A DNA stretch of 64,000 nucleotides, from contig NZ_AP012324.1 of assembly GCF_001025175.1 (NCBI RefSeq), positions 1,922,001 through 1,986,000 of the forward strand, read 5' to 3'. Position 1 is the stretch's first letter, and every line of letters begins with the position of its first letter. The DNA is from Bifidobacterium breve DSM 20213 = JCM 1192 (GTDB lineage Bacteria; Actinomycetota; Actinomycetes; Actinomycetales; Bifidobacteriaceae). Shown here in pieces: positions 23,326 to 28,592 of the stretch. The translations under genes were made by a program, and so were the position numbers. The notes under the pieces are model-generated. The model saw only the letters and a program-made list of their open reading frames with translations. It made no database searches and had not been told where the DNA came from.

Positions 23326-23481
23326 CGCTTGTCGTTGAACACAGCCCAGTGAGCTGAGCCGTATAGCAGACAGCCCGGTGGGCTGTCTGTAGGCGAAGTG
23401 AGCGGCTGCACTACAAGCAGCCGCGAAGGCCGCCTCATTGGGCTGACGTTCAACGCTTGTCGTTGAACACAGCCCAGTGAG
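23326..23481. repeat. 28-base direct repeat flanking two hairpins
   Basis: CGCTTGTCGTTGAACACAGC and the following eight bases occur identically at 23326-23353 and 23454-23481. Between the copies lie two perfect small hairpins: AGACAGCCC/GGGCTGTCT (23368-23388) and GCGGCTGC/GCAGCCGC (23402-23424). The second copy is the 3' end of the small gene at 23450-23650, so the first looks like a duplicated gene tail. Confidence 0.85.
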
Positions 23482-23486
23482 GCGGC
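23429..23486 (-). terminator. giant hairpin over the 3' end of the small gene
   Basis: A near-perfect 25-26-base stem (23429-23454 with 23462-23486) and a seven-base loop. It contains the stop codon of the 66-residue gene. No T-run follows; it could terminate, stabilise or slow ribosomes on the FHA/helicase-like operon mRNA. Confidence 0.75.
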
Positions 23487-23650
23487 AACTCGCCGAGAAT
23501 GCGCTTGTCATCGTCGGCTCGACGCTGCTGGTCGGTTTGCATGTCACCAGGCTCGAGCTTGACACCGTCTGCATCGAAGCTTTCAGTGCCCTTCATCACC
23601 ACTCGTTTATGTTTGCGTGGGGTGCGCCTTGTAGCCGAATATTCCGCCAT
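23450..23650 (-). CDS. small basic hypothetical protein, third gene of the FHA/helicase-like operon
   Basis: A 66-residue protein of no known family. It starts MAEYSATRRTPRKHKRVVMKG, so the N-terminus is very basic, and then becomes acidic (ESFDADGVKLEPGD, QQRRADDDKRI). The C-terminal GELPPHWAVFNDK looks conserved and specific. It starts two bases after the stop of the 1210-residue gene, so it is almost certainly translated from the same mRNA. No membrane segment or cysteine is present. The basic tail could bind nucleic acid; this is a guess. The last ten codons lie inside a giant hairpin. Confidence 0.75.
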   Translation of the reverse strand: MAEYSATRRTPRKHKRVVMKGTESFDADGVKLEPGDMQTDQQRRADDDKRILGELPPHWAVFNDKR

Positions 23651-23652
23651 GT

Positions 23653-26600
23653 CTACTCGACTTCGCGATAGATCTCGCCGATACGGGCCACGATGCGATC
23701 GACTTCCTTATCCGGGTTCACGAATGCCGCAACGCTCCATACACTCATGACATTCCAACCTAGGGAAATCAAATCCTGTGCCGATAGGCGATGACGCTTG
23801 CGCGTGGACTGCACGGACATGAAGCTGGCATCATCGGTCTGCACCGCCAACGCGAACGGGCGACCCTTAAGACCGACGACCAAGGGGATCCTTGAGCCCC
23901 TATCGAAACCGTAATTCACAGCCGCTTCAAGACCGCGCGCCCGCAGACGCTCGGCGATATCTTCGAACAGTACGTTCTGACCGGCATCATCACGCGTCGG
24001 CAATATCGGACGATCGTTGAATTGCTCAGCCCAGGCCAGCATGGTCTTCAGGAATCGTGGGCCCTGCTGGTGGAGACGCTCATCCTCCATATCCTGAGAG
24101 CCAAACGCCGAGACGATATCCAAGTTGCGGTCGGCAAGCGCCAATGCGTCGAGCAGCATGCCACGTCCGCCCTCGTGCTCCACCACACCGAACTGCTGCA
24201 GCAAGCGACCATGCACCGTCTTGGCATAGCACAGGGACAGAATCACGTCGGTGGCCTGGCAACCCGCCACGTCACGCAGCGGAACCAGCCGCACATGCCG
24301 CAGGAATCGGCCCATCGGCTTGTTCTTGGAGGCCAACGACTTCAATTCCGCGCCCAGACGAGTGCGGAATACATCAGTCAGCGTCACCACGGTCAGCACA
24401 TAGCTGGAAGGCACCACAGTAAAGCTGGCAGCCCGCTGAGTGATAAGGTGCACCACCTTATCAATCTCCTGTTGGCTGGATTCCACAAGACCAGACAGCA
24501 TGACCGGTACGCCGTTGGCGTCCTCGACCGAATGGAAACGCACCTTGCCTGATGCCGGCTCAGTCGCCACATCATACCGAACCGAACCATAGCCCTCAGA
24601 TTCAAGGAATGCAGCGAGACGCGGGTCGCGGCGGGTCGGAGCGGACTCCACTTCAACATGAGGAAGCAAATCAATCAGTTGCTTCATGGATTCACTGGTC
24701 ACCGTAGCGCAATGGGCAATCACCACTACCTGACGCACACGGCCAAGAATCGAAAGCAATTCAATGGATGGAATATGCGCGCAGGCATCCACAATGGCCA
24801 CATCCGCAATAACCGCGGGGTCGGTGAGTGCGGCCAAAGTGCCCGGCGTCGCCACGAGTATCGGCTTGGCAGCAGCCAAAATCTCCGGATAGTCACGGCG
24901 AATACGACTAAGCGACACATGGGCACGACCGGCTAACACCGTATGCAACTGGTTGGCCTCCTGTGTATGGGAGAACAACATATCGCACAAACGCCGCATC
25001 GATTCCTGAGATACCATCGGCCCCACGGAACGCACATGCTCCACATCGACCTGGGCGAACCGGTCGGATGCGGTTTGCAATGCGGAACCGTCCTGGTTGG
25101 AAATGATGGCGGACGAACGCACGATATCCTCAAACACCGTGGTCCACCATGCCAGTTGCACTTCGCCACGAATCTGCGGCACACTCACCTGACGAGTATG
25201 CAGATCCTCGACCAATTCGTTCAGTCCGACACCGGCGAATTCATGTTCCAAGCGGCATCGTTCCGGCAAGGTATCAAGAGCCTTACGGTCATCAAGCAAG
25301 GCCTTCAGACGCACCTCGACAGTATTGAAATCGGTGGATCCCAAATTGCCGCCCGCTGGAGTCGTGGCGAGCACGGTGTCGAGCGCAGTCATGTTGCTGA
25401 CCATCGCGTCCAATGTGGTGATGATGTCATCCAGCTTGGTGGGGAGCACCGGCCATCCGCCGTGTGGCACGAACTGCCTCCACTGCTCCGACTGCCGAGC
25501 CACTACTTTGAGCGCTTCATGCAGGTCTTCCACCTGGGCACCCACGCGCAGCAGACCCTTGGCCTCCTTGATATGACGACGCCGCTCCCAGAAGCCCATC
25601 GCGCTTCCTTCAGCCTTGCGCTGAGCCTTGGGCTTGGTCGCTTCAATCATCGAATCGATGTCGCGCTCGAAAATCTCCGGCTGGAACACGTCGAGCACGC
25701 GGCGCAGGTTCTTGAGCACGGTGACCTGGCGCTCCCATTCGCGGATGGTCGAGGGAACGGGGAATCCGCACGTCTGTACGGTACGAGCCACCTGCTCACG
25801 GGTTGCGGGAAGGAACCGACGCAGCAAATCATCCACGCGCTGGTAGGCTGTCACTGCCTCCTCCTCGGTGTTCAGGGAGGCCTTGTACCAGGCGGTATCA
25901 TCCGGCCCGATGGAGAATTCGCCGAGTTCACCGGCCCGCTCCAACTTGCCGACCCATGCTTCCATATCGCCGGCAACGGCAATCGCGCTCTGTTCAGTCA
26001 GGCGGATATGCGTGGCGGGATGCGTGGGCAGCACGGAGATGCGAGCCAGATTCTGAATCGTCTCGTAAGCAGATACGTTCCACTTATCGTTCACCCCGTG
26101 CAGGTCGCCCAGGTACCGGGTCAGACGAGAACGCACGCCAACAAGTTCATCAGCAAGCTGGTCGAAACGCTGTGTGGCTACACCCTGCTGGAATCCCACA
26201 GCGGAAATCAACTGCTTGTCAATGGCGGCGTTGGCCTGCGCATCAGCCACATCCAACATCTGAGCCTTCAGCTCATTGGCGGACACGGCTTGCATAAACA
26301 GTCGCTTCTGTTCGGCGACACCCGGCACATACAGCACCGACCGACCACTCATCAGGCAGCGCGAAGCGACGGCTACCGCCTGCTCTGCCGTGCCTTTGGG
26401 GAACTCTCCGTCAATGACGATGCTATGGCCCGCGGCTGCAAGCGATGCGGCATATCGCACGGTGTTGTCGACATCGCCTACCTCAAATTCCGCATGCGGA
26501 TCTGCATCGAACGGGCTGTACTGCGCAAGATCGGCATCTTTGAGGGACGACTGCGCATGTTCGTTACCAGCGAGTGCATCAAGCAGCACATTGTCACTTT

Positions 26601-27285
26601 CGCCGTTCTCCAGCTGGTCGATGAAGCGCTGGCTTTCGGCAATCATCAACGATGAGGGATCCACAAAGCAGCCCAGCACGATTTGGCGCTCGATATTGAA
26701 GTCAGGAATGCGTTCCACGGCTTCCGCCGTGATTCTGGCGAACATAGCCGAGGTTTCAGGCTCGCCACTGTCATAGCTGGAACCGTCAAACAGAGAATCC
26801 TCGTCAACATATACCCGCTGCTCTCGCAGCACATTGACGAATGCCGTATTCAACTTCACACGGCCGGTGAACTGCACAGTGGCGGCGGATTCTTCCTTGG
26901 GCACCGTGACGTTGACCGGATACAGCAGCACGGGCAGTGCATTGCCCTTCCACGTGGCCACACCGACCACCAACGAAAGCTCGGCCACTCCGGACACACG
27001 TCGCTTGGCGGTCTGGTCATCCATGACCCGAGACAAGTGCCGTTCCGCCGCCTTCAACACCCCGGCATCACGGAACAGCGAGTCCAAGCGAACATGTCCC
27101 GAAGCGAACAATTGTGCAATGCCGGACGGATGGGCATGCGTCATATCAAGTTTGGCCACCAGCTGGTTCGCGTCCTCCAACGGAGAGGGGGCCAACATGC
27201 CGCGATACTGGTCACGCCAGTGACGGATGCGGTTCAGACCGTTTTCAGCATTCTGATCCTGCGTCTGGGTCATCTCTTGGCTCAC
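23653..27285 (-). CDS. giant SF1-helicase-like protein with degenerate ATPase and nuclease motifs
   Basis: A 1210-residue protein laid out like the DUF4011-type SF1 helicases with a C-terminal restriction-endonuclease-fold domain. The first P-loop reads GEFPKGTAEQ (residues 293-302) where active relatives have GPPGTGKS. The Walker B block reads VDACAH (about residue 833) instead of DEAS. The following GDxxQ motif has become AHCATV, and the last helicase motif has lost its arginine (LLDALALAD, about 1041). The C-terminal nuclease-like domain (about 1115-1205) keeps the fold, for example SLGWNVMSVWSVAAFVNPDKEV, but its acidic residues look changed (RIPLVV; VQTDDASFM). It overlaps the FHA gene by four bases and is coupled to the small gene downstream. 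The intact reading frame suggests a retained non-catalytic role. Function unknown. Confidence 0.8.
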   Translation of the reverse strand: MSQEMTQTQDQNAENGLNRIRHWRDQYRGMLAPSPLEDANQLVAKLDMTHAHPSGIAQLFASGHVRLDSLFRDAGVLKAAERHLSRVMDDQTAKRRVSGVAELSLVVGVATWKGNALPVLLYPVNVTVPKEESAATVQFTGRVKLNTAFVNVLREQRVYVDEDSLFDGSSYDSGEPETSAMFARITAEAVERIPDFNIERQIVLGCFVDPSSLMIAESQRFIDQLENGESDNVLLDALAGNEHAQSSLKDADLAQYSPFDADPHAEFEVGDVDNTVRYAASLAAAGHSIVIDGEFPKGTAEQAVAVASRCLMSGRSVLYVPGVAEQKRLFMQAVSANELKAQMLDVADAQANAAIDKQLISAVGFQQGVATQRFDQLADELVGVRSRLTRYLGDLHGVNDKWNVSAYETIQNLARISVLPTHPATHIRLTEQSAIAVAGDMEAWVGKLERAGELGEFSIGPDDTAWYKASLNTEEEAVTAYQRVDDLLRRFLPATREQVARTVQTCGFPVPSTIREWERQVTVLKNLRRVLDVFQPEIFERDIDSMIEATKPKAQRKAEGSAMGFWERRRHIKEAKGLLRVGAQVEDLHEALKVVARQSEQWRQFVPHGGWPVLPTKLDDIITTLDAMVSNMTALDTVLATTPAGGNLGSTDFNTVEVRLKALLDDRKALDTLPERCRLEHEFAGVGLNELVEDLHTRQVSVPQIRGEVQLAWWTTVFEDIVRSSAIISNQDGSALQTASDRFAQVDVEHVRSVGPMVSQESMRRLCDMLFSHTQEANQLHTVLAGRAHVSLSRIRRDYPEILAAAKPILVATPGTLAALTDPAVIADVAIVDACAHIPSIELLSILGRVRQVVVIAHCATVTSESMKQLIDLLPHVEVESAPTRRDPRLAAFLESEGYGSVRYDVATEPASGKVRFHSVEDANGVPVMLSGLVESSQQEIDKVVHLITQRAASFTVVPSSYVLTVVTLTDVFRTRLGAELKSLASKNKPMGRFLRHVRLVPLRDVAGCQATDVILSLCYAKTVHGRLLQQFGVVEHEGGRGMLLDALALADRNLDIVSAFGSQDMEDERLHQQGPRFLKTMLAWAEQFNDRPILPTRDDAGQNVLFEDIAERLRARGLEAAVNYGFDRGSRIPLVVGLKGRPFALAVQTDDASFMSVQSTRKRHRLSAQDLISLGWNVMSVWSVAAFVNPDKEVDRIVARIGEIYREVE

Positions 27286-28592
27286 TTTCCAACCGCTTCG
27301 CGGTATTCCTGATATCCCTTGTTATGGGATAGAGCTTCGTCGATGTCGGCTTCGCCTCTGGCGGCGAGCCAAGCATACATATCGTCATACAGGTATGGGT
27401 TCATTGCCAGAAATGCCAGCAACTCAGGGTGACGAGCAATCTCGAACTGCGTGGAGAAATCCTGCGTGGTTTTAGCATCGTCCGAGGTCAGGCCATCAAC
27501 TTCCACCACCGGCTCCTGGGCCTTCAGTTCTCCCTTGCTCACACGGTCGAACACGGAGCCCGGCTCAAAAGCTGGTGTATAGACACCAGTGGTGTCAGCC
27601 TCGCCCAAATCGGCAACGCTTACTTGAACGGGCTGGTCCGACTGATCGGACTGATCGGGTTGGACGAATTGGCCGGGCTGCTCAAATACCGGCGACTGCT
27701 CAGGCTGTGCCTGCACATCCGGCTGCTGGTCCGGGATGGATACCGCCTCAGCGGATGGTGCAGTCTCAGATTCCGTCTCGGTTGCTGTTTCAGATGCGGT
27801 CCCAGATACAGTCTCGGGCACCTTGGCAACAGGATGAGCGATCGCATCCACCGGCACCACGGCAGGTGCAGAAGACTCCGCCGGTTCGACGGGTTCAGCT
27901 TGCGGGCTTGTCTGCGGCACGAAATCAGCGGCAGGCTGGGTCTGCTGCGCCTCACCGTCCGGCACGGTATCTTCGGACTGCTCGGCCATCGCATCGGCGA
28001 ACAAATCACGCGGAGTGGCCGGCTCTTCCGCCTTGACCACGGATTGGGCAATGTTCAGACTGCTGAAGTCGAGTTCGTCAACCTTATGACGAACGCTGGC
28101 GGCGCTGAACGCAGCGGTCGGCTCACCGGCCCGCAAATCCAAAATGTCGTCAACGGACATATCAGCGGCATCCGGCTCCTGCGGTGCTTCATTCACCGCG
28201 TAGCCGAACAAATCAGGCACCGGAAGCTGCTGATCATGCTCGACGTCATCGATACGGATGAAGTCCGCCGGAACATCACCGAACTGCATGCGCATCGGCG
28301 AGGACGGCAGCATAAACTCGGCGTCAACGGGCAGACGCAGTAAATCGCCATTGTCACGAACCACATAAGAGCCATTGGTCGAGCCTAAATCGCGCACGGC
28401 TGCAGAACCATTCTGCTTCACCTCGAACACGGCGTGCCTTTTGGACATCGACTTGGTCTGATCCACCACATCAAGACGCTGCATGCCGTCATCGGCTAGA
28501 GGACGCAATGGCTTACGGCCAATCTCCACGCAGTCGCCCGATTTGACGTTGACTCGATCAACCCCATTGATCCGCACCGTCCATTCACTCAC
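27282..28592 (-). CDS. FHA-domain protein
   Basis: About 436 residues. An N-terminal forkhead-associated domain holds the phosphothreonine-binding motifs GRKPLRPL, SMSKRHAVF and DLGSTNGSYV (about residues 25-95). A long acidic, Gln/Pro/Ala/Glu-rich linker (about 150-345) is probably disordered. A C-terminal helical module (about 360-436) includes FEIARHPELLAFLAMNPYLYDDMYAWLAARGE. I chose the GTG at 28592, eight bases after GGAGG; longer starts lack a binding site. FHA domains read Ser/Thr-kinase phosphorylation, so the operon may be under kinase control. Its end overlaps the start of the helicase-like gene by four bases. Confidence 0.88.
   Translation of the reverse strand: MSEWTVRINGVDRVNVKSGDCVEIGRKPLRPLADDGMQRLDVVDQTKSMSKRHAVFEVKQNGSAAVRDLGSTNGSYVVRDNGDLLRLPVDAEFMLPSSPMRMQFGDVPADFIRIDDVEHDQQLPVPDLFGYAVNEAPQEPDAADMSVDDILDLRAGEPTAAFSAASVRHKVDELDFSSLNIAQSVVKAEEPATPRDLFADAMAEQSEDTVPDGEAQQTQPAADFVPQTSPQAEPVEPAESSAPAVVPVDAIAHPVAKVPETVSGTASETATETESETAPSAEAVSIPDQQPDVQAQPEQSPVFEQPGQFVQPDQSDQSDQPVQVSVADLGEADTTGVYTPAFEPGSVFDRVSKGELKAQEPVVEVDGLTSDDAKTTQDFSTQFEIARHPELLAFLAMNPYLYDDMYAWLAARGEADIDEALSHNKGYQEYREAVGK

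Follow-up and report, generated by a model that had tools for sequence, protein, structure and literature searches.

A chromosomal gene of Bifidobacterium breve DSM 20213 = JCM 1192 encodes a protein of 1210 residues that combines the fold of a superfamily 1B (SF1B) helicase with a nuclease-like domain, has lost the catalytic residues of both, and is maintained by strong purifying selection as a core gene of an actinobacterial order. The gene, recognized from its homologues and its fold, lies at positions 23653..27285 on the minus strand (GTG start, TAG stop) of a stretch of 64,000 nucleotides (contig NZ_AP012324.1, positions 1,922,001 to 1,986,000), hereafter the window. It is the second of three genes that follow each other end to end, the first coding for a forkhead-associated (FHA) protein and the third for a protein of 66 residues. 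A preliminary description of the locus had proposed that an FHA protein is coupled to a dead helicase-like protein; this reading stands, and the evidence supports a larger finding, namely a pseudo-helicase-nuclease that occurs across the order, whose intact relatives still exist and whose small partner is conserved. The window family is the Bifidobacteriaceae and the order is the Actinomycetales.

A pseudo-enzyme under purifying selection

An SF1B helicase is characterized by a Walker A motif GxxxxGK[ST], a Walker B DE, a motif III glutamine and a motif VI arginine, none of which is present in the 1210-residue protein. Neither G....GK[ST] nor GK[ST] alone occurs anywhere in its sequence, which leaves no canonical P-loop elsewhere in the protein. 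The altered helicase motifs quoted in the preliminary description are all there, opposite the true motifs in alignments with intact homologues: the former Walker A (residues 293-302; 26380..26409, minus strand like all features below) reads GEFPKGTAEQ for GPPGTGKSQT, GEFPKGTA standing for GPPGTGKS; the former Walker B (24775..24792) reads VDACAH for FDEASQ, with DACAH for DEASQ; the motif III region has AHCAT for GDERQ; and the former motif VI (24124..24156) reads LLDALALADRN for RLNVAITRARx, with LDALALAD for NVAITRAR. The nuclease site, likewise described as altered, has become IP..VQTDD..RHR from the ID..VESDG..RDR of restriction endonuclease (REase)-like relatives. The acidic residues of the PF18741 nuclease site (ID and E-x-D-G in intact relatives) are thus changed from D to P and from E to Q, and the G to D, while the D of E-x-D-G and three arginines are kept. 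The whole window family is affected, since the Walker A lysine, the Walker B glutamate and the REase catalytic aspartate are absent from all 68 aligned sequences, none of which contains G....GK[ST]. In these sequences the REase ID is IP or another residue followed by P, the E-x-D-G glycine is replaced by D, N or E, the E is retained in a minority, and arginine occupies the aligned motif VI position in a single sequence (L053). The Walker A lysine is likewise missing from all 57 named relatives aligned for structure prediction.

The AlphaFold model of residues 11-1210, obtained from these 57 relatives (58 sequences in all), has a mean predicted local distance difference test (pLDDT) score of 85.7 and a predicted template modelling (pTM) score of 0.73, and displays two RecA-like domains in the arrangement found in Upf1 and Dna2. 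The best solved match given by VIA-align is Upf1 (2xzo_A, Z 17.1, 444 residues aligned, 5.0 Å), followed by Dna2 (5eax_A, Z 16.8, 511 residues, 4.7 Å) and Ighmbp2 (4b3g_B, Z 16.8, 501 residues), with Sen1 and Aquarius just below; these SF1B matches (Z 15-17) span about residues 1-1083 of the model. Foldseek ranks Aquarius first, and HelD bound to RNA polymerase is also among the fold matches (6yxu, Z 13.1). The 1210-residue sequence alone matched no solved chain at E ≤ 1, but a broader profile that includes intact relatives (profile A2) matches Smubp-2, Nam7 and Dna2 with E-values of 1e-9 to 1e-7. The SF1-like layout previously proposed therefore has a structural counterpart. The protein shares the core fold of Upf1, Dna2, Ighmbp2 and Sen1, and differs from them by the absence of the residues for ATP binding and hydrolysis and by a large helical insert (residues 356-800; 24886..26220), the best-kept large part of the helicase region.

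The only Pfam match of the 1210-residue protein is REase_MTES_1575 (PF18741, residues 1108-1202, E 1e-11, 45.2 bits for a cut-off of 38.2). This Vsr-like domain with a broken nuclease site extends, according to the profile and the model, over residues 1103-1206 (23668..23979). Modelled alone, the 121 residues 1090-1210 (pLDDT 80.7) match the Vsr-like structures 3hrl (Z 9.3) and 3r3p (Z 8.7), and gave no plain Foldseek match at E ≤ 0.001. The same model also matches mitoribosomal proteins of Toxoplasma gondii and Tetrahymena (9i05_Xr, Z 8.0; 9g6k_Li, Z 6.9; 6z1p_AS, Z 4.9), which may be RAP-type domains. After the REase-like domain, the outgroups and many dead members of the order (for example L172, L212 and L125) carry a conserved tail of about 60 residues (..YSxDxLxxLVxWxxSDG..RTxxxL..LGxxRR..R..) that was found in none of 38 window-family loci. 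I take it to be possibly a DUF3320-type winged helix; Pfam named no family for it in four proteins.

A homologue of the large protein is present in 143 of 151 window-family genomes and in 128 of the 130 good ones, and no stop was found inside any listed window-family match. The two good genomes without a match (G007 and G056) have either an assembly gap or a true loss. Across the order, the window-family profile detects homologues, some dead and some intact, in 243 of 248 genomes, and in 231 of 233 when only good ones are considered. The total of 243 leaves out four weak matches (G215, G270, G302 and G322) with which the broader profile A2 reaches 247 of 248. Named carriers include Georgenia, Actinomyces, Cellulomonas, Oerskovia, Cellulosimicrobium, Sanguibacter, Ruania and Promicromonospora. 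The ratio of nonsynonymous to synonymous substitution rates (dN/dS) was calculated for the 14 closest pairs in the genus: over the entire gene it amounts to 0.018-0.058, over the dead nuclease region to 0-0.066 and over the helical insert to 0.018-0.050. The large gene is therefore a chromosomal core gene of the order under strong purifying selection, and its product a pseudo-enzyme, as anticipated in the preliminary description.

Intact relatives and the order of the losses

Whereas profile matches at the level of the order include dead and intact proteins alike, the catalytic sites were read at residue level in selected loci covering 20 family codes of the order. The fetched frames do not cover the Walker A of f12 (L326) or the REase sites of f10 and f16. 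Only f4 (one genome read) and f17 (seven of ten genomes read) were found to have intact Walker A and B motifs. The intact proteins of these two families are homologous to the 1210-residue protein over their full length, have the same domain order and belong to the same gene tree, but keep GPPGTGKS, DEASQ, GDERQLPP, NVAITRAR and the REase ID and E-x-D-G. Three intact members of the order score above the Pfam cut-offs for DUF4011, AAA_11, AAA_12 and MTES_1575. By contrast, DUF4011 (PF13195) does not match the 1210-residue protein itself at E ≤ 1. Since this domain is recognized only in intact orthologues (L113, L133 and L142), the DUF4011 homology of the large protein runs through a chain of relatives: the DUF4011-type kinship asserted in the preliminary description is borne out by these orthologues and not by the protein's own match. 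The Vsr-like REase MTES_1575 was named in PMC3710099, where it is part of a different, larger protein, and a DUF4011 gene is treated in PMC10250203.

Compared with NCBIfam, three intact orthologues of the order reach 773-815 bits for the anti-phage protein ProA (NF058533) and 497-550 bits for Hhe (NF042953), likewise anti-phage, below the cut-offs of both. Of the 1210-residue protein, the C-terminal third aligns with the same two profiles, at 163 bits for a cut-off of 1500 and 55 bits for a cut-off of 2000, so that it does not qualify as a member of either family; it lacks the catalytic residues and is compared with profiles of about 1550-1900 positions. A candidate family of PADLOC, PDC-S37, is also matched, mainly by the C-terminal part (174 bits, E 1.2e-51). 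Together these comparisons show that the ancestor of the large protein was a helicase-nuclease of the broad ProA/Hhe kind, in which a DUF4011-type SF1B helicase is linked to a Vsr-like nuclease.

Two trees were calculated from 80 sequences by quick LG+G4 searches, in which uneven residue make-up was flagged, the first with the catalytic columns and the second without them. Both group dead proteins in one clade with an SH-like approximate likelihood-ratio test (SH-aLRT) value of 100, comprising 62 sequences from 12 family codes in the first tree and 61 sequences from 18 family codes in the second, where the f17 sequences do not form a single clade. At least three state changes are needed in the first tree and four in the second; starred branches force two of these in either tree. 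Further losses occurred within f17 (L176; L329 and L330), and outside the order the Walker A lysine is replaced by arginine in f38 and in L155. Several early branches of the dead clade (f5, f6, f15 and f14) contain proteins whose ATPase is dead and whose nuclease site retains D, E, D and G, which indicates that the ATPase was lost before the nuclease. As read from these sequences, the history thus appears to consist of one main loss of the ATPase, a later loss of the nuclease, and repeated losses elsewhere. The f38 proteins (same class, other order; L156-L170, L319, L320 and L321) are related large proteins with a GTGRT Walker A, and in the three f38 loci read a gene of the small PPHW family described below lies 0.1-2 kb downstream.

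Which residues outlived the chemistry was assessed by tabulating the catalytic columns of 139 aligned sequences and comparing intact orthologues with three dead groups: 14 "mid" sequences (ATPase dead), 25 crown sequences and the window-family sequences. Expressed to one decimal, the Walker A lysine, the Walker B glutamate and the motif III glutamine are kept in 0.0 of all three groups. For the mid, crown and window-family sequences, respectively, the fractions are 1.0, 0.0 and 0.0 for the motif VI arginine, 0.6, 0.0 and 0.0 for the REase aspartate, and 0.9, 0.0 and 0.1 for the REase glutamate. Conversely, R428, W466, A549, R556, W602, P612 and G687 are kept at 0.9-1.0, and the REase arginines R1162, R1164 and R1166 at 1.0 in the crown and window-family sequences. 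In the helical insert (here residues 326-790), 69% of the residues that are invariant in the intact enzymes are kept in the crown sequences and 55% in the window-family sequences. Retention of the REase arginines and of residues of the helicase region is what would be expected if nucleic-acid contact outlived the chemistry. Together, the REase arginines and the helical insert agree with a retained contact with nucleic acid or a partner, and do not prove it.

The small PPHW protein and the FHA protein

The third gene (23450..23650, 66 residues, ATG start), recognized by its homologues downstream of the large gene or fused to it, begins 2 bases past the TAG of the large gene and belongs to a small family with a C-terminal PPHW, its own C-terminal motif being DDDKRILGELPPHW. 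No Pfam family matched the two members submitted, and an initial likeness to thiamine synthase (Pfam E 0.21) was noise and was dropped. The protein is only slightly basic (14 K+R for 12 D+E), its N-terminal half being basic and its C-terminal half acidic, so that its earlier description as a small basic protein has to be amended.

Downstream of the large gene, a separate open reading frame ending in PPH was found in 34 of 37 window-family loci and, for the rest of the order, in 103 of 127, as against a chance rate of 35 in 11278 open reading frames elsewhere in the same loci. In 14 further loci, from six family codes, the large protein itself ends in this tail as an in-frame fusion: five in f13, two each in f5, f9, f17 and the window-family genus g4, and one in f15. 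As a control, 7 of 356 other frames of 700 residues or more end in PPH, some of them being true PPHW frames. When separate and fused forms are taken together, 36 of 37 window-family loci have the tail, as do 115 of the 127 others in the order, some genomes being counted twice in the downstream and fusion counts. Intact enzymes and dead proteins are alike in this respect: in f4 and f17 the PPHW gene lies downstream (L119, L133 and L136) or is fused (L113 and L130). Since some families encode this tail in a coupled gene and others within the large protein, there is good evidence that the PPHW protein and the large protein act together, both before and after the catalytic loss. The idea that the PPHW protein is an exclusive partner was rejected, most of its carriers in the class lacking the large gene. 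In 20 loci of the class (L304-L323), the PPHW gene has a neighbour that I take to be mscL-like in 15 of 20 cases and a SAF-like neighbour in 11 of 20.

The FHA gene (27282..28592, 436 residues, GTG start) overlaps the large gene by the four bases GTGA; the overlap and the 2-base gap on the other side are exactly as first described. Its product consists of an N-terminal FHA domain (residues 23-83; 28344..28526; Pfam E 2.4e-08), a long acidic linker and a C-terminal helical LRV_2 domain (residues 377-423; 27324..27464; E 3.7e-10), both domains scoring above the cut-offs. LRV_2 occurs at one other place in the genome. The GR, S, H and N residues that mark phosphothreonine binding in FHA domains are intact in the GR/SKRH/STNG signature of this protein and in every aligned window-family sequence without a gap at the position concerned (G 56/56, R 56/56, S 60/60, H 61/61, N 63/63). 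The large gene has an FHA gene upstream in 35 of 38 window-family loci. With the large-gene start nearest the FHA stop taken, the 4-base overlap recurs in 31 of 64 window-family loci, and the spacing between large and third genes is -4 or +2 in 40 of 64. Three loci of the window-family genera g4 and g9 (L051, L052 and L053) have a large protein only 22-23% identical to the 1210-residue protein and no FHA gene in the fetched stretch.

The partnership proposed in the preliminary description thus applies to the window family and not to the loci examined in other families: a profile trained on the window family alone found an FHA gene in none of 120 (one of which, L126, is a 100-base placeholder). 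An ancient FHA partner is rejected on this result and on a Pfam survey of 15 genomes of other families and, being family-specific, the FHA protein cannot define the ancestral job of the large protein.

In the window family the operon follows rplJ-rplL, a neighbourhood that was not seen in 39 stretches from other families. A gene for FTHF cyclo-ligase lies near the locus in the window and in 16 of these 39 stretches, which supports common descent of the genomic place.

A proposed role and its alternatives

The most likely hypothesis, to which I would give a probability of roughly 45%, is that the large protein is an ATP-independent nucleic-acid scaffold comparable to RecC, with which the PPHW protein co-acts and which is tied to a Ser/Thr kinase in the window family. 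In this model the preserved helicase/nuclease fold of the large protein would clamp or channel single-stranded or junction DNA (or RNA) independently of ATP, and a second protein, itself active, would dock on it. The PPHW protein would be a co-expressed small subunit or, in some families, a C-terminal tail, perhaps a docking peptide. In the window family, the FHA protein would read phosphothreonine, so that a Ser/Thr kinase could recruit or release the complex.

RecC belongs to the UvrD-like branch of SF1, whereas the large protein belongs to the Upf1-like branch and has a Vsr-like nuclease domain; the comparison is an analogy only. It rests on a helicase-like protein with a dead nuclease domain and a non-catalytic role in DNA handling: PMC1185551 describes the dead nuclease domain of RecC as guiding single-stranded DNA, and PMC4824097 places the Chi recognition locus in the helicase-like region of AddB. 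No RecB or RecD gene was seen beside the large gene, and RecC is not among the matches listed in the fold and profile searches, an absence from the lists that does not amount to exclusion.

Several observations weigh against this hypothesis. Retention is lowest in the former P-loop and the motif II-III region, where the window-family sequences keep 26-27% of the intact enzymes' invariant residues, so that the old nucleic-acid path nearby may also be altered; in the closest pairs these short stretches reach dN/dS values of 0.31 (former P-loop) and 0.24 (II-III), from few changes. A PPHW frame lies within 420 bases of the large gene in only 1 of 21 loci outside the order, and PPHW is found in 101 of 148 genomes of the class (E ≤ 0.01), mostly without the large gene, which suggests that it has a job of its own. 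With Pfam, no FHA domain was found near the large gene in 15 genomes of other families (the contig of G196 ends 0.9 kb upstream), the closest one on the contig of the gene lying some 46 kb from it (G291). Finally, RNA is equally possible as the ligand, given that the best fold matches include RNA helicases and that the REase-like model matches mitoribosomal proteins.

More tentatively, these data may be read as the history of an anti-phage-type helicase-nuclease that became, with PPHW, a vertically inherited scaffold free of ATPase and nuclease activity throughout the order, the stages of the conversion coexisting and FHA-mediated kinase control being added in one family. Intact, ATPase-dead but nuclease-intact, and doubly dead proteins live side by side in present families, a series that allows one to test which job survives the loss of both activities and how an enzyme of the defence type turns into a housekeeping protein. 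The best-known dead helicase-like proteins, RecC and AddB, sit in complex with a live twin; by contrast, the gene for this giant dead protein is part of the core genome of almost the whole order, Actinomyces, Georgenia and Cellulomonas included. The FHA link offers a handle on Ser/Thr-kinase signalling in the window family, and the PPHW tail is a defined peptide for binding tests. Literature searches found no description of the large protein, and the main text of the B. breve essential-gene paper (PMC5514069), in its accessible part, mentions neither FHA nor helicase.

The alternative that survives best, although unlikely, is that the protein is an RNA-, ribosome- or transcription-associated pseudo-helicase, whose Upf1/Sen1-like core and dead REase-like domain bind RNA or RNA polymerase. 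The best Foldseek and VIA-align matches are mainly RNA helicases (Aquarius, Upf1, Ighmbp2 and Sen1), HelD on RNA polymerase and the mitoribosomal proteins point the same way, and the window-family operon follows ribosomal rplJ-rplL. But Dna2, which acts on DNA, scores equally, the rplL neighbourhood is not seen in the other families, where FTHF cyclo-ligase is a recurrent neighbour, the intact relatives resemble anti-phage helicase-nucleases, and HelD retains its ATPase.

A pure protein scaffold for phospho-signalling, with no contact with nucleic acid, is improbable: the close coupling of an FHA gene whose product has intact phosphothreonine-binding residues would suit it, but this coupling was found in one family only, whereas the large protein is order-wide and the arginines of its REase-like domain are invariant. 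About as improbable is a phage-defence sensor devoid of chemistry of its own that triggers another effector through the FHA protein. Such a role would agree with the ProA/Hhe-like intact relatives and the PDC-S37 match. Defence genes, however, are mobile and patchy, unlike this near-universal, apparently vertical core gene with housekeeping neighbours and purifying selection, and the ProA/Hhe matches of the 1210-residue protein are far under the curated cut-offs. Lastly, a helicase relic nearing loss, which would account for the disappearance of all key catalytic residues, the 22-23% identity of the three divergent copies and the two good genomes devoid of the gene, can be dismissed on the dN/dS values of 0.018-0.058 and the intact frames, neither a dN/dS near 1 nor widespread frame breaks being seen among the pairs and matches examined, and on the retention of the gene by all the other good genomes of the window family; the operon is thus not a set of decaying copies.

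Two minor observations concern the B. breve genome itself. The 28-base tail of the third gene recurs 128 bases downstream (window positions 23481 and 23353, minus strand), a pattern that would result from duplication of the 3' end. At another site (G000 contig 1, 79659-80423), two FHA domains are found no more than 0.8 kb apart and may belong to a kinase-signalling cluster.

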